Shown here: positions 639 to 29,735 of the stretch, piece by piece
How the letters are laid out: each line of letters starts with the position of its first letter
Numbering within the stretch: the stretch's first letter is position 1
From: Escallonia rubra
Lineage: Eukaryota > Streptophyta > Magnoliopsida > Escalloniales > Escalloniaceae
Direction: 5' to 3'
Length of the DNA: 64,000 nt
NCBI GenBank assembly: GCA_033065855.1
Contig: JAVXUO010002698.1
Coordinates: 1-64,000 of the forward strand
The notes under the pieces: model-generated
What the model was told of the DNA's origin: nothing
The model's database searches: none
The model's input: only the letters and a program-made list of their open reading frames with translations
Made by a program: the position numbers and the translations under genes

Positions 639-641
<3 letters not shown>

Positions 642-884
642 AGCTGATCCTTGACAGCGTAGGCAAAATAGGATATCTTGCCAGCGCGATCTGGCCGTCC
701 ATCCCGAAGGGATGGACGGTCCAGATCACTTTTTTTTGCGGCGCTGTCAGTCGTCCGCTACACAGTGTAGCGGACGGATCTTTTTACCATCTTGCCCTCG
801 CTCACCCGTCCGCTAGACTGTGTAGCGGACGACATTCTTGGGCCAACAAAAAGTAGTCCGCTACACTGTCTAGCGGACGACTGT
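639..884 (+). repeat. Left terminal inverted repeat of MULE
   Basis: It aligns over 246 bp with the reverse complement of 9534-9779, with only scattered differences and one short divergent patch near 832-850. It contains a long hairpin (688-727) and three of the 23-bp palindromes (753, 808, 856). Confidence 0.93.
688..727. repeat. Hairpin inside the left TIR
   Basis: A 40-nt inverted repeat starting GATCTGG and ending CCAGATC, with inner arms CCGTCCATCCC and GGGATGGACGG around a 3-nt loop and a single one-base bulge. The mirror copy is at 9690-9729. Confidence 0.85.
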
Positions 885-984
885 TTCCGTCAAACCACCC
901 ACTTCCCCTGACAGTTGTCACATCAGTCGATGCACGTCTGTTACTTTGTCGTTATCCCAGCGTCCGCAACACAGTGTAGCGGAC
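753..984. promoter_or_regulatory. 5' cluster of four 23-bp palindromes
   Basis: Copies occupy 753-775, 808-830, 856-878 and 962-984. Each has left arm GTCCGCTACAC or a close variant, one central base, and the inverted right arm ending GTAGCGGAC. The cluster spans the TIR and the DNA just inside it, 380-610 bp upstream of the ATG of the mobile-domain/protease gene, so a role as promoter element or protein-binding site is plausible. That role is inferred from position and symmetry only. Confidence 0.6.
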
Positions 985-1364
985 GTTGGCAGGCATTCGA
1001 AGCCTTCTAAACTTCTATTCATTCCTTCTTCTCACAATCAAACTATTCCTTCTTCTCACGATCAAACCAGCGGCGTTGGCAAGTAGATCGGCGCAATTTC
1101 TTTGCAAGAAATCCTTTAATCGTCTCATCAATCACGTAAGTTCACAAACTAATCCTTTCTTTGTTCATAATCTAGAGTTCATCTTGCGGCGTTGGCAAGT
1201 AGATCGGCACTATGCTAGCGTTTGTCAATGTATATACATATATATTATATATGTGTATTGCGTATTATCTGATCACATGCTAGCGCTGAATATGCTAGCG
1301 TTGTATGTTTGGGAATGTTTACGCTTCCAACCTTGCCCTCTTTCCATTATTTCAGTTGCAAAAA

Positions 1365-4300
1365 ATGGATTTCAACCCTGGACCAGAAGATTCGTCCGTA
1401 TTATACGACCAAGCATCCCATATCAGTACGCTCATATGGGATGGTGGAGTAAGATACTTATTTTATCGTTTATATCGTTTATTTTGCTTACGTATTTCAG
1501 TTGCGAACGTTGTATAGTGTTTATTTTGCTTAAATAATATTTATTAATTCGTAGGAAAGAGCACTTGTCAACACGGTAGAAGTAAGCGATAATTTCAACG
1601 CCTGGAAATTGAACAGAACCCAGAAAAGATTACTGCGTGGGATTGGGTTTGGGATTTTCACGCATGGGCAGATCTTTCAACAACTTGACCGGCACTTAAT
1701 AGGTGCCCTTGTTGAAAGGTGGAGAAGTGAAACGAATACGTTTCACTTCCCTCTCGGAGAGATGACAATTACCCTAGAAGATGTAGGGTTCATCTTAGGG
1801 TTACCGGTGACGGGGCGGCCGGTAATAGCTCATCCGTCCGAAGCAACGAATAAGAGGACCGCTAGGGACTTCTTTACTTCGATACCCCAGGATGGATTTA
1901 ACAGTGGTGGTATCAAGTTGAAGTGGTTGGTAGATACCTACGGGGTTTTGCCGGAAAACTATACGGGCCATGACCTTGTGCTGTACACACAAGCCTTCCT
2001 CTTGTGGGTGATGGGGGCAATATTATTCCCAACGACGTCGAAGAACACGGTCAGCGTCAAATATTTACCGTTTTTGCGTAACCTGGCTGAGGTTGGGGAT
2101 TATGCCTGGGGTGCAGCAACTCTTGCATACCTGTACCGAGCATTGCACAAGGCAACGAGGCCCGACTCCAAAGCGATATGTGCATGTCTCTCGCTATTGC
2201 AGGTATATCATACAATTCTTCATTACGTGCTCTTTGTTGTTTTTTTTTTGTTGAATGGACAATAAATGTTGACGATACTTTTTTTAATGTCTTTGCTCTC
2301 AGGTGTGGTCTTATGAACACCTTGCTACCGGCGCACCCAGGCGTAGGGACGGAACAGATAATGTGTGGCCTCGGTTGTGCGCCTGGGAGTACAGCCGGAA
2401 GGAAACCCACTACGAGAGGAGAGACGATCCCCATCACAACATTTCATACTATCGGGGGGAGCTCGACTCGTTATCTCCTGGCCAGATGCGATGGGCACCG
2501 TACAAACGTTTGGCGCGACGGGTGGGAGAGTCGTTCGTCTTCACACTCTCCGGGTTGCAACGCACACCCCTGATCCACTTCGAGGTCGCAGAGTGGCAGC
2601 TGCCGGATCGCGCTATGCGCCATTTTGACTGCCTGCAGGGGTTGCCAGCCGGCGCGCCAGATATGAGGCTTAACAGGAACCCACCGGGTGTCGGACTGTT
2701 TGGCAGGGCGAATGCGCACGAGTTGTGCGCGCGTGAAATTGAGGTCTGGAATTCTTGGCAGGACACGCTGGCGGCCATTGTGTCGGAGCCTGACCCCGTC
2801 ATCAGCATCGAACAGTACAATGAGTGGTACTACCGCATCACCCGGAGGAGAGTAGCTCCAGTAAGGTTTGAACGCGGGGAGAAGTACCACCCTAGGGGTC
2901 AGATCGATGAGCACATGGCATACAATCTGGTAAGTTGCCCAACCAGTGCTTCTAATTGAACTTGATCATTCTAAGTGTGTACGAAGTTACTTATTTATTA
3001 TCTCTCTGGATGTAGGTTAATGCCTCGTTCGCCTTCTTCCAGAAGTTGAGCGAGCGGAAGGATTTGGTGGATGCCATGGGCGAGGAGCTTCACCAACAGG
3101 CTGAAGCGTTGGCGGTTGGCTGCGGGAATTTTTTGCGGCAAGCATCGGGACAGCCAAACCCGGGAATGGGTTATCCGGGGTGGCAGCGGCCGTTTGTTCC
3201 CGAGGGATGCACCGATCCCTCGGGACAGACTTCGGGAGTGAGCCAGGGATATGGTTTTCCCTCTGTACCGGAGATGGGTGGTGATTGGGGACCGCCAAGC
3301 ACCATGGGCCAGGCTCAAGCGCCGTGGGAAGATTACAGTGCGCCCTCCTTCTCTTTACTATTGGATTCGGAACCCCAACCCCTCTCTCAGAGTCAAGTCA
3401 CGCAAGACTGGGGTTTCGGAAACATCAGTCTGCCCATTGTCCCGTGGGCAGGACCATCTATTGCCAAAGGCGGGCAATACCCCCCCGTTGACCCCCCTGA
3501 AGGAGTGCAATATCCCCCCGTCGACCCCCCCCGAAGGAGTGCAATATCCCCCCGTCGACCCCTCCGAAGGAGTGCAATACCCCCCGGTCGACCCCCGAGG
3601 GCAATATCGCAAAGGGCATCCGTTGAAGCCCCTAAAGCCGCAGAAATGCCAGATAATCAGAGAGCGTTATTTTAGCGGCGTCCCGCATGACCAAGCGTTG
3701 TATAGTGTGGATCATCCGGAGGGCATGGATTACAGTTGCTCGTGGGGAGAACTGGCCTCGCTGGCTCCGGGGAGTTGGTTAGACAACGGTGTCGTCTCCA
3801 CCTACGTGGAGATTCTGAAGGAAAGGTGTCGGCAGCAGCCGACCTATCCGGCCGTTTTTCTGTTCGATGCCTTTTTTCATCAGATGCTAGTGTCTGAATG
3901 GCATGAGTGGGTCGAAAATAGGGGGAAGAAAAAGTTGGCCCAGTGGAGACCGTCCGTTAACCTACGAGCGTATCTTAATAGGGATAGTCCGGTGAGCGCA
4001 AGTGTTGCCGATGTGTTTCTAATCCCATTTCTAGGGCAAAGCCACTGGTACTTGGTTTGCTACTCCCCAACAACTAAAGTCGTATCGGTGATCGACAGTC
4101 TCCACGACGATACTCATCAGATGCCTGTGCTGCACATGTACAGAGCCCAGTTGGACGCGTTGGTAATATTACGATCGCTGTATAATTCTCTGATTCTATC
4201 TTGCCATAAATTTTAACTCGTGTCTTACGCCATTTTCTGTTTCTCGCAGAATATTTTTTGTGCAATGGTCAATCGTGTCCGTGATGTCCCCGTACCGGCG

Positions 4301-4561
4301 CGGCCAAATCTCAATAGGCGATTGAAGAAGAGGAGGCCCAAGCAACGTAACACTTCGGACTGCGGCGTCTTCCTTTGCATGTACATGGATTTCATTTGTC
4401 GCTCTGAGAGCCTCAAGGCGGCCGTCTGGAGCCAAGCAGAAGTTGAAGGCTATAGATATAGAATGGCTTGGCAAATTATGAAAGGCCGGCCTAGAGCGGT
4501 TAGGTTTATAGAAAATCCGGCTAATGACGAGAATCCGGCCCAACATGCAGACCCCAGTTGA
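1365..4561 (+). CDS. Plant mobile domain (PMD) + C48 Ulp1-like cysteine protease
   Basis: Five coding exons fit GT-AG rules: 1365-1448, 1555-2202, 2303-2929, 3016-4162 and 4250-4561, about 938 residues. A probable 5' UTR intron runs 1136-1355 (AC|GTAAG to TTTCAG). Exons 1-3 match the plant mobile domain (for example NRTQKRLLRGIGFGIF, EDVGFILGLPVTGRPV). A Pro/Gly-rich linker with QYPPVDP repeats follows. The C-terminal third is a C48 peptidase: His near residue 796 (GQSHWYLVC), Asp near 813 (VIDSL) and Cys near 873 (NTSDCGVFL). C48 enzymes process SUMO or related conjugates; PMD proteins act in silencing and genome maintenance in plants and are often transposon-borne. An eight-C run at about 3525-3532 shifts the frame, and removing one base restores reading into the protease. 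It is either a broken gene or a base-call error. The gene lies wholly inside the MULE, in its left half. Confidence 0.85.
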
Positions 4562-4746
4562 AATTGTATCATAACAGTATTTTTTACATAAACCGTACGC
4601 CATTGGTGTGATTTGATTTGTGTTGATTTCTGTTGTCGAATACTGATTTTTCTGATGAACGTTGTTGGTTTTTTGGCCTCATTGGGAATGATTGAAATGT
4701 GGAAAACGAAATGGTGCAAAAATTTTGTAAGTTTTTCTGCTGCGCC
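4562..4746. other. Spacer downstream of PMD/protease gene
   Basis: AT-rich probable 3' UTR and spacer leading into the 78-bp tandem array. No polyadenylation signal is assigned with confidence. Confidence 0.3.
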
Positions 4747-5438
4747 GTCCGCTACATTGTATCGCGGACGTAAAATGAAGACCAAATTTTTCTAAGTGTT
4801 GATGGGTGATGTTTCTGCTGCGCCGTCCGCTACATTGTATCGCGGACGTAAAATGAGGACCAAATTTTTCTAAGTGTTGATGGGTGAAGTTTCTGCTGCG
4901 CCGTCCGCTACATTGTATCGCGGACGTAAAATGAAGACCAAATTTTTCTAAGTGTTGATGGGTGAAGTTTCTGCTGCGCCGTCCGCTACATTGTATCGCG
5001 GACGTAAAATGAAGACCAAATTTTTCTAAGTGTTGATGGGTGAAGTTTCTGCTGCGCCGTCCGCTACATTGTATCGCGGACGTAAAATGAGGACCAAATT
5101 TTTCTAAGTGTTGATGGGTGAAGTTTCTGCTGCGCCGTCCGCTACATTGTATCGCGGACGTAAAATGAAGACCAAATTTTTCTAAGTGTTGATGGGTGAA
5201 GTTTCTGCTGCGCCGTCCGCTACATTGTATCGCGGACGTAAAATGAGGACCAAATTTTTCTAAGTGTTGATGGGTGAAGTTTCTGCTGCGCCGTCCGCTA
5301 CATTGTATCGCGGACGTAAAATGAGGACCAAATTTTTCTAAGTGTTGATGGGTGATGTTTCTGCTGCGCCGTCCGCTACATTGTATCGCGGACGTAAAAT
5401 GCTGCGCTAAGTGTGGTCCGCTACATTGTATCGCGGAC
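4747..5438. repeat. 78-bp tandem array carrying ten palindromes
   Basis: Palindrome starts at 4747, 4825, 4903, 4981, 5059, 5137, 5215, 5293 and 5371 give an exact 78-bp period; a tenth copy at 5416 breaks it. Each unit contains a 23-bp palindrome (left half GTCCGCTACAT, right half ending ATCGCGGAC) followed by TAAAATGARGACC, AAATTTTTCTAAGTGTTGA and TGGGTGAAGTTTCTGC. Copies differ at only one or two sites, mainly an A/G difference, so the array is young or homogenised. It lies between the 3' ends of the PMD/protease and B3 genes. Open frames through it are only translations of the repeat. Confidence 0.95.
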
Positions 5439-5454
5439 GTAAAATCACTTCCTA

Positions 5455-5555
5455 CCATTCACTATCGAGTGTATCTCAATATATCGAGGCTATTTCAACC
5501 TACCAATCACTATCGAGGGTATCTCAATATATCGAGGCTATTTCAAACGACACAA
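5455..5555. repeat. Two-copy ~48-bp direct repeat
   Basis: The segment CACTATCGAG to ATATCGAGGCTATTTCAA occurs twice in succession just downstream of the B3 gene stop. Minor, with no function apparent. Confidence 0.7.
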
Positions 5556-5618
5556 TTAAGCGAGGAAAAATTTCGAAACACAATCAACAAGAACTCAAAT
5601 TATTTTATTAATCATAAA

Positions 5619-6082
5619 TTAGGGTTCACATTGGGGGAAAGAAATTTTTTCACAAGTGCTCCGATCAAAGATTACAACTTGAAAATCCCACCACCCAAGG
5701 TGTTCAAACACTACAAAGTCCCCGAGTTCGAGGCCATGCTGGCGCACGAAGACGTTCCAACCCTCTGCGAGTTGCTTTTTTTGGGGTCGGCCGGGCTTCA
5801 GCTTGATTTCAACCTGCCATGCCCCCTTGCGGCTATATAATCTTGCACTGTCATGAATTGTTGTAAATTGATTGGTGAAGGCTTCCGGTATGTCCTAACA
5901 AACACAATACACAAAAAATAGGTTAGTTTTTAACCAAAAGATATAACACACGAAAATACAGAGATAGAGGGATGGCATACAAGTTCATTCTCAAACCCCG
6001 GCATCATGACTTTGAAAAAGTGTTTGCCTGCCAGGTGCAAGTTGCCAATAAAATCGTAGGTGGTCTCCGATCCAGAAGCCAT
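5619..6082 (-). CDS. Small single-B3-domain protein carried by the MULE
   Basis: Two exons on the minus strand: 6082-5981 (34 codons from ATG) and 5894-5619 (91 codons plus stop), giving 125 residues. The intron has donor CTT|GTATGC and acceptor TTTGTTAG|GAC. Exon 1 holds the B3 opening (KHFFKVMMPGFENEL) and exon 2 continues DIPEAF, then KGAWQVEIKL, AEGWNVFVRQHGLELGDFVV and ending FQVVIFDRS. This is the usual order of a B3 fold: the FFKV strand, the IP.AF turn, the W.V strand, then GW..F....L..GD and the final V.IFD strand. B3 domains bind DNA, and REM-type plant proteins often consist of little else. Five palindromes (6260-6489) lie 180-400 bp upstream of its ATG and ten (4747-5438) lie downstream. 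The frame is intact over the whole domain. Likely a captured host gene now part of the element. Target unknown. Confidence 0.82.
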
Positions 6083-6259
6083 CGAGGTCGGCGTTGAGGG
6101 GGGGACGGTTTATCGCCGGAGTTGTGGGTCACCGGAGATGTGGGTCGCCGGAGATGGAGTAGTGGCCTGGGCTAGATGTTCCAGACAGAGAGAGTGGCCT
6201 CCAGATTGGACTGATAACAGCCGATTGCCCGATATGATTAATATATATCATATAGACTT
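6083..6259. other. B3 gene upstream region
   Basis: Noncoding GC-rich leader, presumably 5' UTR and promoter of the minus-strand B3 gene. A 91-codon plus-strand frame (6060-6335) overlaps the B3 exon and looks like a shadow. Confidence 0.4.
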
Positions 6260-6489
6260 ATCCGCTACATTGTATAGCGGACATAAAAGAAGACCAAAAG
6301 TTATGACGTCCGCTATATTATATAGCGGACATTAAAGAAGACCAAAAGTTTGCCTGCTCTAACGTCCGCTACATTGTATAGCGGACGTACAAAGACCAAA
6401 AGTTTTACTTCGATGCCACCCCTCCGCTATACAATATAGCGGACGTAAAAGACCAAAGTCGATGATGTCCGCTACATTGTATAGCGGAC
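6260..6489. promoter_or_regulatory. Second internal cluster: five palindromes
   Basis: Copies at 6260-6282, 6308-6330, 6364-6386, 6422-6444 and 6467-6489, spaced 45-58 bp apart and separated by an AAAAGACCAAAAGTT-like spacer. The spacer echoes the 78-bp array unit but lacks its constant period. The cluster lies between the 3' end of the transposase and the 5' end of the B3 gene, so it could serve the B3 promoter. Confidence 0.75.
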
Positions 6490-6639
6490 GGGGATTACAA
6501 AATAAAAAAAAAACTCGTAATAAAGACTTTAGATTTGATTCGATGGCCTCTCATAGGTCCATTTTAAAAAAATTCCAGTACCCGGTCGAAAAATTATCCC
6601 TCGAATATTATTACAAATGTCATAAAGTTGTACAAAAAA

Positions 6640-8937
6640 TTAAAGGTCCACTGCAGCTTGTTCGTCCTCATCTTCGGCGTCACCTTCTTCCCCGTCTTGC
6701 AAACCCCTTGAACTTATCCCCAGTGCCTTGTAATGGTTCCGCTTGTCGTGGTCGGTCATTTTGTTGCACAATGCACACCTTCGCAGCTTTTTAGGTTGAG
6801 TTGCCGTTTCAATAGAGCTTTTCATCCGCGTAGATCTCTTGCGGCCTTTCGTTTGCGATATAATTGGATCCAACAAACGGATATCATTGTCGTCTTCCTC
6901 CTCCGGCTCGTCATCTTCTGATACCCCCGTCGTAGGCTCGGTGTCAATCGCATTGGTGACTGAAGCTGCTTCCAACTGGTCGACGATGGGCTCTTGTTGC
7001 TGAGCTACCTCGAGGAGATGTTTATAACCGACCATTGTAGCAGCACCTTTTACGGACAAACGGGTGAACATCGTCACCAGATGATTATACCGCAACGTCT
7101 CTGATTCTTCAAAGTCAGTATACGGGTGCTCCGGAAAGGAAATGGTACCGTGCAACCTGTTTGCACCTTTTGTCCACCGTGGCAAGACGTATTTATCGGG
7201 GATTGTCCTGATATTCTTCTGGGTGAAAAACCGCAGAACGTGTCTACACAGGATGCCATGGAACTCAAACTTCTTGCAAACACATGTCACCGAGTCCGTC
7301 AATGTGTCGTGGCTCACCGTATACATTCTGCGCAGCTTCTCAGGGACTAGGTCATTCACGAGCGAATAAACCTTGTACTCACGCGTAGACATTTCTGCCA
7401 CCTTGTTTATACTGTATCGTCCGGATTTTCGCAGCTCTACTTGGTATAGCAAGAAGATCTCCTTCGTATAGACTTTGGCACCGTTCATCTCCAGCGGGGT
7501 CTCGAGCAACGTTCTCCTTTGTTTGTACGTTGTTGCAAAGTCGGCAGCCCTTTCTTTTACGAACAACGAAGCTACCGCTTTTTGTGCGGATGCAACGAAA
7601 GTCTTCAAATTGGTAGCTGTACCCACATAACTATCGAACGTGGCATTCATGGATTCACTCCTGCCCGTCGTTTTCATGCCCGCTGAAAAATACCTCCTCG
7701 TGTAAACGCCAATCCATTGCTCTTTGCGCTCGTACAAGTGCTGGAGCCACTCGTTGTCTTGCAATGAGTAATCCCGAACAAGCTTTTCCCACCTCTCCTC
7801 GAATTCCTCAATCGTTAACGACTTGAGGACGCACTTGTCAAAATCCTGTTTAAAGTCTTGATACTTTGCGTACACGTGATGCAGCCGTTCCGGGTATTTG
7901 TTGCTTATGTGCCAGGTGCACAAGTTGTGCCGAGTGTCTGGGAAGACGGTCGCAATAGCCTTCTTCATTGCCAAATCTTGATCGGTGATGATCACTTTGG
8001 GTGCTTTGAAGTTCATTGCTTCCAGCCACGTCCTAAACAACCATTCAAAAGAATTCTCGGTCTCGTCCCTTAACAAGGCGAACCCGAACAGGATGGAGTG
8101 ATAATGATGATTGACCCCCGTGAAAGGGGCGAACGGCATCGAGTACTTTTTGGTACGGTATGTGGTGTCGAACGTTACGACATCCCCAAAATGCTTATAA
8201 GCAAGCCTCGAACGACCGTCGACCCAAAAAATTGTGCTAACTCGATGCTCGTCGTCAAGTTTATAATCGAAGGTCAACTGCGGGTCCTCCATCTGCATCC
8301 GTTTCAATAGGCTCATTGTGGCTTGAGCATCATTGAGGTCATACGCGGCTCGTCTATGGGTTCGGACCGCGTTACGAACGTCTGTCGTGTTAAAGGTCAA
8401 ATTTTGAATTCCCCCAGCCTGTTCAGCAAGAACATTAATCATGTCGGTAGGTCCTAGTCGCGCATTGCTCATTGTCTGAATCAGGCTCCTTGCGACCTTA
8501 CCCATCTTCTTGTGTTGATGCATCTCACTCACCTTAGAAGGGGTTACTAACGGGTGATTGTGTGCCAGTTCCAGGCTGGTAATAAGCCAATGGTCTTGTT
8601 TGGGTTTGTAGCTTACGAACATCTTGACCTGGCAATTTGTGCGCTCAAAGCAGTCCCGTCTTCTACGCGGATATCCTATTTCGTCCTCACTGTCATCATT
8701 GCCTACACATGTCTCATTTTGCACTGGGTTTCTGCTCCTATGGCACTCGTATAAGCGAGAGCATATCTTTCTCGTTATGGTGCTCGTTCTTGAAGTCTTT
8801 ATTCTAATGCCAAAACCAACCCTCAATGAATACGCTCGAAAACATTCTTCAGCTTCTTCCAACGTAGCAAATGTTCGTCCTAGATACGGATCACTAGCAT
8901 CTACGGGGACGTTGGAGCTCGACACGAAATCAGACAT
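6640..8937 (-). CDS. FAR1-type MULE transposase
   Basis: A single uninterrupted frame of 765 residues. The open frame extends upstream to a TTG, but the first ATG is at 8937 (MSDFVSSSN), which I take as the start. Residues ~20-130 are a FAR1/WRKY-GCM1-like zinc-binding DNA-binding region (YSLRVGFGIR, Cys at 59, 65 and 102, AHNH at ~125). Residues ~250-350 are the MULE transposase core, with candidate catalytic residues D257 (VTFDTTYR), D319 (VIITDQD) and E428 (GRSESMNATF). A SWIM zinc finger with C552, C554, C564 and H566 follows, then an acidic tail and a CALC..H zinc-knuckle-like motif. It should cut and join the TIRs of this element. It is convergent with the PMD/protease gene. No key residue is missing, so it may be active. 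FAR1/FHY3 transcription factors are domesticated relatives. Confidence 0.94.
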   Translation of the reverse strand: MSDFVSSSNVPVDASDPYLGRTFATLEEAEECFRAYSLRVGFGIRIKTSRTSTITRKICSRLYECHRSRNPVQNETCVGNDDSEDEIGYPRRRRDCFERTNCQVKMFVSYKPKQDHWLITSLELAHNHPLVTPSKVSEMHQHKKMGKVARSLIQTMSNARLGPTDMINVLAEQAGGIQNLTFNTTDVRNAVRTHRRAAYDLNDAQATMSLLKRMQMEDPQLTFDYKLDDEHRVSTIFWVDGRSRLAYKHFGDVVTFDTTYRTKKYSMPFAPFTGVNHHYHSILFGFALLRDETENSFEWLFRTWLEAMNFKAPKVIITDQDLAMKKAIATVFPDTRHNLCTWHISNKYPERLHHVYAKYQDFKQDFDKCVLKSLTIEEFEERWEKLVRDYSLQDNEWLQHLYERKEQWIGVYTRRYFSAGMKTTGRSESMNATFDSYVGTATNLKTFVASAQKAVASLFVKERAADFATTYKQRRTLLETPLEMNGAKVYTKEIFLLYQVELRKSGRYSINKVAEMSTREYKVYSLVNDLVPEKLRRMYTVSHDTLTDSVTCVCKKFEFHGILCRHVLRFFTQKNIRTIPDKYVLPRWTKGANRLHGTISFPEHPYTDFEESETLRYNHLVTMFTRLSVKGAATMVGYKHLLEVAQQQEPIVDQLEAASVTNAIDTEPTTGVSEDDEPEEEDDNDIRLLDPIISQTKGRKRSTRMKSSIETATQPKKLRRCALCNKMTDHDKRNHYKALGISSRGLQDGEEGDAEDEDEQAAVDL

Positions 8938-9430
8938 TGTGAAACAAGAGCTGTGTAGAAATAGACTACGCTTAACAATCAAATGGCATTTCTAACTGAA
9001 AATATTACCTAAAAATTAGGATGGCAAACATACGGTATGCATAATCTCAAAAGTGTCTCCAAATTAACAATTATTAATTTATTGAACATAACAAATTTAA
9101 ATTAGTAAGATAAATAGACGAATTCATCATGCCAAAAAATCGAATTAAACTATAATGAATTAAATATAAAGTTAACAAATTATACCTTTTTTTTTTTTTT
9201 TATGTCTAGAACATCACAAAAAATCTAGAGTATAAAATCACAAATTGATGAATACAGTGACAAATTTCTAGAACATCAAGAAAACTTGAAGCAAACTTAC
9301 CTTGCTTGAGCGAAGCTTGAAGCAAGTGTTACTCGAAGCTTGAAGGCAGCTGAAAATGGAAGCGAGTCTGAAGGAGAAGAAAATTGTGCTGAAAGAATTG
9401 AGTAGAAGAAAATTGTGCTGAAAGAAAATT
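8938..9430 (-). promoter_or_regulatory. Transposase 5' leader with probable UTR intron and uORF
   Basis: Reading the minus strand, CTCAAGCAAG|GTAAGTTTGC at 9301/9300 is a strong donor and TATTTTCAG near 8996 a plausible acceptor, giving a ~300-bp AT-rich 5' UTR intron. A five-codon uORF (8989-8972) precedes the main ATG at 8937. AAATTGAGT/GTGCTGAAAGAA segments repeat in 9370-9435. Confidence 0.55.
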
Positions 9431-9453
9431 GAGTAGTGGGGATGGGCAATACT

Positions 9454-9664
9454 GTCCGCTATACTGTGTAGCGGACAGAATTGCCGACATCAAGTCACAC
9501 TTGTGTCAGACAAGTCACAATTGTGTCAGAATGACAGTCGTCCGCTGGACAGTGTAGCGGACTACTTTTTGTCGGAGGATGTTTTCGTCCGCTACACAGT
9601 CTAGCGGACGGGTGAGCGAGGGCAAGATGGTAAAAAGATCCGTCCGCTACACTGTGTAGCGGAC
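9454..9664. promoter_or_regulatory. 3' cluster of four palindromes
   Basis: Copies at 9454-9476, 9540-9562, 9587-9609 and 9642-9664 mirror the four copies at the left end. They lie 150-360 bp upstream of the proposed transposase leader exon, so the transposase promoter and the right TIR share these sites. Confidence 0.6.
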
Positions 9665-9779
9665 GACTGACAGCGCTGCAAAAAAAAGTGATCTGGACCG
9701 TCCATCCCTTCGGGATGGACGGCCAGATCGCGCTGGCAAGATATCCTATTTTGCCTACGCTGTCAAGGGATCAGCTCCC
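9534..9779 (-). repeat. Right terminal inverted repeat of MULE
   Basis: Reverse complement of the left TIR over its full 246 bp. It contains three palindromes and the 40-nt hairpin at 9690-9729. It ends TCAGCTCCC followed by ATATATATA. Confidence 0.93.
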
Positions 9780-9895
9780 ATATATATATATATATATATA
9801 GAGGAGGAAGATTCCTTTAATTACGGTAGCAGCTAACCCTGCCAATAAAGAACATATTTTGTCTTATAAGAAACTTTCTCCAACCCTGTATACAA

Positions 9896-29189: not shown

Positions 29190-29735
29190 AGGGTGCCAAG
29201 GGAAGCTGTTAGGAGTGATGACCCGACCGCGAAAAAAGAAGAAATTTTTCTAAGTGTTGAAAAAGTGAAGAGGGTGCCGAGTGAAGCCGCGGGGGTGATG
29301 ACCCGACCACGAAAAAGGAAGAAAATTTTCTAAGTGTTGAAAAGTGAAGAGGGTGTCGAGTGAAGCCGCGTGGGTGATGACCCGTCCGCGAAAAATGAAG
29401 AAAATTTTCTAAGTCTGGAAAAGTGAAGAGGGTGTCGAGTGAAGCCGCGGGGGTGATGACCCGTCCGCGAAAAATGAAGAAAATTTTCTAAGTCTTGAAA
29501 AGTGAAGAGGGTGTTGAGTGAAGCCGCGGGGGTGATGACCTGTCCGCGAAAAATGAAGAAATTTTTCTAAGTCTGGAAAAGTGAAGAGGGTGTTGAGTGA
29601 AGCCGCGGGGGTGATGACCCGACCGCGAAAAATGAAGAAAATTTTCTAAGTCTGGAAAAGTGAAGAGGGTGTCGAGTGAAGCCACGAGGGTGATGACCTG
29701 TCCGCGAAAAATGAAGAAAATTTTCTAAGTCAGCC
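29190..29735 (+). repeat. 79-bp tandem repeat next to the right LTR
   Basis: About seven units with GTGATGACCC starts near 29295, 29374, 29453 and 29532. Each unit runs GTGATGACCCGTCCGCGAAA, AATGAAGAAAATTTTCTAAG, TCTGGAAAAGTGAAGAGG, GTGTCGAGTGAAGCCGC. The AAATTTTTCTAAGTGTTGA core and GTGAAG are shared with the MULE 78-bp array. Confidence 0.9.

Follow-up and report, generated by a model that had tools for sequence, protein, structure and literature searches.

The stretch of DNA analysed here (the window, 64 kb of Escallonia rubra contig JAVXUO010002698.1) carries at positions 639-9779 a Mutator-like element (MULE) of 9,141 bp in which a single palindrome is repeated 23 times, and the locus thereby raises the question of which, if any, of the element's own proteins reads this palindrome. 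Besides a FAR1-type transposase the element harbors two accessory genes, one coding for a protein with PMD and C48 protease domains (PMD-C48) and one for a small B3-domain protein. A first-pass annotation had proposed that the element follows the logic of VANDAL elements and their anti-silencing protein VANC with unrelated parts, one accessory protein recognising the palindrome and lifting silencing in trans. On a small sample of related elements the palindrome appears to track the B3 gene and not the transposase or the PMD-C48 gene. The B3 protein may therefore be an element-encoded, TnpA-like reader of the palindromes at ends and promoters, a reading that is evenly balanced between being right and wrong.

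From left to right the element consists of a terminal inverted repeat (TIR), the PMD-C48 gene (plus strand), a tandem array, the B3 gene (minus strand), a palindrome cluster, the transposase gene (minus strand) and the second TIR, with a coding share of 60%. The features are:

598-638, resuming at 9780-9800: (TA)n microsatellite, the target site
639-884: left TIR, 246 bp, with the end GGGAGCTGATCC and palindromes at 752, 807 and 855
752-985: palindrome cluster 1, sites at 752, 807, 855 and 961, upstream of the PMD-C48 gene
1365-4561, plus strand: PMD-C48 gene, exons 1365-1448, 1555-2202, 2303-2929, 3016-4162 and 4250-4561, frameshifted near 3525
3467-3596, plus strand: 33-bp tandem repeat coding for EGVQYPPVDPP linker repeats, differing in number between copies
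4734-5439: palindrome cluster 2, nine palindromes in an array of 78-bp tandem units and a tenth at 5415, where the PMD-C48 and B3 genes converge
5618-6082, minus strand: B3 gene, exon 1 6082-5981, exon 2 5893-5618, GT/AG intron, 125 amino acids
6259-6490: palindrome cluster 3, sites at 6259, 6307, 6363, 6421 and 6466, upstream of the B3 gene
6640-8937, minus strand: FAR1-type MULE transposase, 765 amino acids, single open reading frame 8937-6643
9453-9665: palindrome cluster 4, sites at 9453, 9539, 9586 and 9641, upstream of the transposase gene
9534-9779: right TIR, 246 bp, palindromes at 9539, 9586 and 9641

All 23 palindromes of the window lie inside the element, and 200 dinucleotide shuffles of the element averaged 0.025 sites and never gave more than one. 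The earlier observation that the motif is confined to noncoding segments holds for each of the 23 sites (P ~1e-6 with the nine-unit array counted as one site); as in VANDAL-type systems, the motif is found in noncoding tandem repeats, here the 78-bp array, and a cluster is located upstream of each of the three genes. The half-site, (C)GTCCGCTAYA, is present in two copies inverted around a free 3-bp centre, as derived from 463 sites of the window element and 30 fetched loci, which are not independent because the loci are related. Position 11 of the half-site is A in 925 of 926 cases although it lies outside the search pattern. In the genome searched (566,129,122 bases in 3,222 contigs) the core pattern TCCGCTA-N7-TAGCGGA occurs 15,177 times and the reversed pattern, serving as control, once. 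Chance is ruled out as an origin of the palindrome by the shuffles, the reversed control and the empty coding sequence. The number of palindromes per full-length copy ranges from 18 to 29 (13 copies). As in Spm with its protein TnpA, the motif lies near both ends and is retained in deletion derivatives (L012, L023, L035 and L036).

Elsewhere in the window, at 29215-29731, there is a 79-bp tandem array with GTCCGC half-sites. It was considered as a possible further element of this kind and set aside, its resemblance to the 78-bp unit being limited to stretches of 19-44 bp; this resemblance hints at a possible origin of the element's array from other repeats.

The co-variation of the palindrome with the accessory genes, proposed by the first-pass annotation as a check, was followed in samples chosen in different ways. 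In a sample selected by transposase only, five places (L059-L063) were taken from a search with the carrot transposase (P0006; 56 matches scored of 4,320 candidates, 54 of them without stops and none among the places listed for the window transposase), and 1.8 kb past the transposase was read in each. In four of them (L060-L063) a B3 sequence is found in the same place as in the window family, together with palindromes. The B3 frame is open in L060 and L062 and frameshifted in L061 and L063, and the four regions hold 1, 2, 6 and 5 palindromes with exact arms, or 6, 6, 7 and 7 when up to 5 of 22 mismatches are allowed. The fifth place (L059), on contig C267, has a transposase 51% identical over 737 amino acids and a convergent PMD-C48 gene (PMD 47%, C48 41% identical). 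The ends of this element were not located; within the 6.7 kb read in and on either side of its transposase (64,630-71,300) neither a B3 match nor a palindrome is found, the best palindrome match having 8 of 22 positions wrong (shuffles 7-10). The palindrome thus does co-vary with an accessory gene, and this gene is B3, four elements carrying both and one carrying neither: since the C267 element keeps transposase and PMD-C48 without B3 or palindrome in the DNA read, it is B3 that the palindrome accompanies, rather than PMD-C48 or the type of transposase. The C267 element has noncoding repeats of its own, a unit of ~167 bp beside the transposase (L059:196-941) and repeated stretches upstream (L064), which are perhaps the target motif of that element.

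A further sample was selected by palindrome, gene content being ignored, and comprises every place listed for contigs C1 to C12. The three element-sized loci (L029, L031 and L032) all contain B3 sequence, degenerate in L029 and L031; in L032 exon 2 is open with the usual ATG lost, next to a degenerate transposase. L033, L034, L037 and L038 are single ends or small pieces, and L030 holds two non-autonomous elements. One small element there (L030:3447-4957) combines TIRs and palindromes with a fragment resembling a phospholipase C gene, and is perhaps a Pack-MULE. The smallest derivatives, miniature inverted-repeat transposable elements (MITEs) of 144 and 136 bp, consist of the element ends and two palindromes each in mid-element (exact or within 3 of 22 mismatches). 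The palindromes in these gene-less MITEs point to a role at element ends, at least besides gene activation.

The B3 gene, intact according to the first-pass annotation, is an open two-exon gene, and its product matches the Pfam B3 domain with E 1.1e-10 and 41.8 bits (cut-off 30.1); the nearest solved chain is 1yel (E 0.008), and a homologue search returned a single match, from E. herrerae (2 candidates). Its state within the family was followed in 21 places, 20 chosen by TIR match (L009-L028) plus the window element. The gene is open in all 15 complete copies; of the remaining six places, it is partly deleted in L009, absent from L012, L018, L022 and L023, and obscured by N in L013. In a second sample, 20 of the 59 places listed with an open transposase, it is open beside the intact transposase in 19 and was not found at L052, where the slice comprised only 1.1 kb. 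Between window and sister elements, some copies of which are degenerate, dN/dS is 0.77-1.54 for exon 2 (65-86 codons) and 0.12-0.38 for exon 1 (21-34 codons), and owing to that degeneracy the fast evolution of B3 may reflect relaxation or adaptation. Within the family the variant ratios are 0.41-0.75 for the larger exons and 0.60 for B3 exon 2, values that carry little weight because the copies are young.

The transposase had been described as intact and indeed forms an open frame with MULE (E 1.2e-32), FAR1 (1.2e-12) and SWIM (5e-5) domains, FAR1 being N-terminal and SWIM C-terminal as in the Jittery-like, FAR1-type group. It is complete and uninterrupted in 15 of the 21 places and open in 12 of these. 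A search of the genome with the window transposase gave 59 scored of 4,760 candidates, all of them 99-100% identical and without a stop, and towards the sister elements its dN/dS is 0.32-0.33.

In contrast to this conservation the PMD-C48 gene, complete in 17 of the 21 places and open in only 3 of these 17 against 12 of 15 for the transposase (Fisher P 0.001), is largely decayed. Its presence, though, is borne out by Pfam matches to PMD (E 1.8e-50 and 1.6e-18) and Peptidase_C48 (E 3.9e-5 and 2.3e-6); the earlier annotation had not called it intact, and a run of eight C near 3525 puts the C48 part out of frame with the PMD part, which rules out the window copy as a working gene. The three open copies are L010, L016 and L026, L016 being counted as such despite a 27-bp deletion and shifts in the final codons. 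Towards the sister elements dN/dS amounts to 0.25-0.55 for PMD and 0.47-0.70 for C48. The DUF1985 and DUF287 domains of VANDAL/VANC genes are not found together in the window element, DUF1985 remaining below the cut-off in the PMD exon (E 0.018) and no DUF287 match being listed in the Pfam scan; all 7 PMD proteins scanned, out of 120 listed, show a weak sub-threshold DUF1985 match in the same place (E 0.001-0.24). Outside Escallonia the closest relative of the PMD part is MAIN-LIKE 2 (39% over 45% of the query). In the C267 element (L059 and L065) the PMD-C48 linker likewise consists of tandem peptide repeats (WEPSSGLPPD...), unlike EGVQYPPVDPP in sequence. One public gene model (P0122, contig C2451) has the PMD exons of the element fused to PPR repeats and is probably a chimeric annotation at a transposable-element insertion. 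The best explanation for PMD-C48 is an older accessory of the MULE lineage, similar in make-up to VANC genes and their KIU (Kaonashi Ulp1) relatives and mostly decayed in the window family.

The TIRs proposed earlier superpose well, with 238 of 250 aligned columns identical (95%), as in a MULE with matched TIRs. The termini GGGAGCTGATCC...GGATCAGCTCCC are embedded in the (TA)n microsatellite, and for this reason the target-site duplication of the window copy cannot be delimited; the related 136-bp element L036 shows a perfect 9-bp duplication, and MULEs are expected to produce 8-11 bp, mostly 9. TA-repeat flanks are present in all 15 copies with both ends found, the window included. Each TIR contains a second palindrome (695-719 and 9698-9722; GTCCATCCC/GGGATGGAC) within a longer inverted repeat, and visual inspection shows similar palindromes in sister elements, L033 among them. 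When the genome was searched with the left TIR, 40 of 2,018 candidates were scored; these are 97-100% identical over 250-263 bases, and the other rows are partial matches within the same places. The family is young and large. Judged from its sequence, the window element is an intact-looking, autonomous-type and recently amplified FAR1-type MULE.

Singleton C-to-T changes in the young copies were used as a trace of methylation. The ratio of CG to CHH changes is 3.7 in the transposase and 2.9 in PMD-C48, compared with 0.88 in palindrome-free noncoding DNA, where 7 CG changes were counted, and 1.00 in noncoding DNA with palindromes; the palindrome-free noncoding ratio differs from the transposase with z 2.6 and from PMD-C48 with z 2.4. 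A first, unfiltered count had given 3.8, 2.2 and 0.9 for transposase, PMD-C48 and noncoding DNA. Of the three repeat pairs considered outside the element but within the window, CG changes are in excess ~3.0- and 2.3-fold in two, and the third has too few changes. The pattern in the noncoding DNA of the copies is compatible with a loss of CG methylation, the numbers being small, and anti-silencing by the element is possible.

The reading preferred here is a two-part private control module, in which the palindrome is the operator and the small B3 protein would bind it in trans, probably as a dimer, across all related elements. At TIRs and gene promoters the protein would keep ends and promoters accessible and active. 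It could do so by activating transcription, by lowering CG methylation locally and/or by assembling a transposition complex, in the manner of TnpA for Spm and of VANC for VANDAL21. Since no palindrome is present, within the DNA read, in the one B3-less relative found, the two have the look of a private switch. As a wider scenario, held to be unlikely, a PMD-C48 MULE branch would have gained B3 and the palindromic operator, and the pair would have replaced PMD-C48 as the sequence-specific system for anti-silencing and end activation, now supporting many autonomous families, MITEs and Pack-MULEs and having spread ~15,000 binding sites for a single plant-type transcription-factor domain through a 566-Mb genome.

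Several observations weigh against the B3 protein as reader. Only one B3-less element was sampled, so that the co-variation amounts to 4/4 versus 0/1, or over nine lineages to 8/8 versus 0/1 (P 0.11); furthermore, L060-L063 are unequally distant, B3 exon 2 of L062 being 96% identical to that of the window, and L060 has a single exact palindrome. Exon 2 diverges fast between subfamilies while the palindrome core is unchanged, which would fit better with the transposase as binder, and open frames in young copies are a weak proof of selection because the gene measures only 375 bp. The known B3 sites (ABI3, RAV1, ARF) are, to our knowledge, unlike GTCCGCTAYA. In noncoding DNA the CG signal comes from 7 CG transitions; CHG and CHH changes remain high there, so that non-CG methylation does not look absent, and VANC21 has been reported to affect CG and non-CG methylation alike. 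In MuDR, MURA itself lowers TIR methylation (PMC10398659), an effect that thus does not require an accessory protein.

In an unlikely alternative, it is the FAR1-type transposase that binds the palindrome, B3 being a mere passenger or having its function elsewhere; the internal palindromes would be decoys or autoregulatory sites, and any demethylation would be due to the transposase, as with MURA. The palindromes are subterminal at both ends and present in the 136- and 144-bp MITEs, which is the pattern of transposase-binding sites, the transposase contains a FAR1 DNA-binding domain, and in L032 it is conserved alongside the palindrome core (90% identity, dN/dS 0.32) when B3 is not; MURA-induced hypomethylation of TIRs is described in PMC10398659. 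Contrary to this, the middle of the element holds 10 of the 23 sites, another five stand upstream of B3 and likewise remote from the ends, and the C267 element combines a related transposase with no palindrome in the DNA read, although 51% identity could allow another site. That the palindromes are passive structures (hairpins, cruciforms or slippage-amplified repeats) read by neither accessory protein is improbable. They could form hairpins, and part of their number comes from a 78-bp array that expands and contracts; nevertheless, a fixed half-site with a free centre is common to such differing contexts as TIRs, array, B3 promoter and MITEs, all 23 sites are noncoding, and the reversed pattern occurs once in the genome. 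Improbable, finally, is the PMD-C48 protein as a VANC-like anti-silencer reading the palindrome. Ulp1 can occur in VANC genes (PMC13317346), the weak DUF1985 matches recur in the 7 PMD proteins scanned, and the linker carries variable tandem peptide repeats like VANC proteins. The gene is kept in the palindrome-free C267 element, however, and 14 of the 17 complete young copies, the window's among them, carry it with a broken reading frame; on these two grounds PMD-C48 is a poor candidate for the reader, and this part of the first-pass annotation is not upheld.

In order to place the B3-palindrome pair among known systems, the element was compared with Spm, VANDAL and other MULEs. TnpA reads a short motif repeated at both ends of Spm and is needed for transposition; it acts in trans on deletion derivatives retaining the cis sites and can activate a methylated promoter (PMC2613891 and PMC10398659). 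The window element would share with En/Spm a candidate element-encoded DNA-binding protein and a motif repeated at both ends; Spm TnpA is the closest working model. The two differ in that En/Spm belongs to another superfamily, the window element lacking CACTA ends, and in that the window motif is a long palindrome also present inside the element. We know of no B3 domain in TnpA.

The analogy to VANDAL21/Hiun, drawn by the first-pass annotation, is apt in layout, both being MULEs with an accessory protein and a short motif clustered in noncoding tandem repeats. In VANDAL21 these repeats expand and contract, and methylation is lost locally in noncoding DNA (PMC5735166 and PMC10398659); the number of VANC target repeats varies (PMC5735166), as does that of the palindromes between copies of the window family. 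In contrast, VANC contains DUF1985 and DUF287 and not B3, its motif is the 9-bp YAGTATTAY, with the string 'palindrom' absent from the main text of PMC5735166, and the TIRs of VANDALs are lacking or short (PMC6446971) as compared to 246 bp in the window element. The VANC-like logic is partly supported, as regards layout, variable palindrome number and co-variation with B3, and not supported as regards PMD-C48 as reader. Likewise, 'unrelated parts' is correct for B3 but not for PMD-C48, with Ulp1 in some VANC genes and the weak DUF1985 matches. KIU VANC genes bring an Ulp1/C48 domain into an accessory MULE gene (PMC13317346), a likeness to the window element, where the N-terminal part of the C48-bearing protein is instead PMD. 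PMD genes antisense to MULE transposases are common (MUDR, MDR, MUDRAVI2 and others in Table 1 of PMC6446971), and the window element resembles MUDR, MDR and MUDRAVI2 in the PMD gene beside and antisense to its transposase; among the rows of that table considered, no PMD is given for the FAR1-bearing plant groups (Jittery, Hop), and B3 is given for none of the groups. The term 'b3 domain' is absent from the main text of PMC6446971, and the literature searches brought up no MULE described as carrying a B3 gene. Captured PMDs have been speculated to serve MULEs in anti-silencing (PMC5418596). Relative to VANC systems B3 is the new part, and PMD-C48 resembles VANC/KIU genes.

How transposons evade silencing while leaving the host genome repressed is still an unsettled question, for which few cases have been worked out (VANC, TnpA, MURA). 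A family with dozens of near-identical open copies offers here a small candidate pair, a protein of 125 amino acids and a defined palindromic site. If B3 is indeed the reader, a transposon would have adopted a plant transcription-factor fold as a switch of its own, and the ~15,000 sites for it in the host genome would be free to affect host genes.

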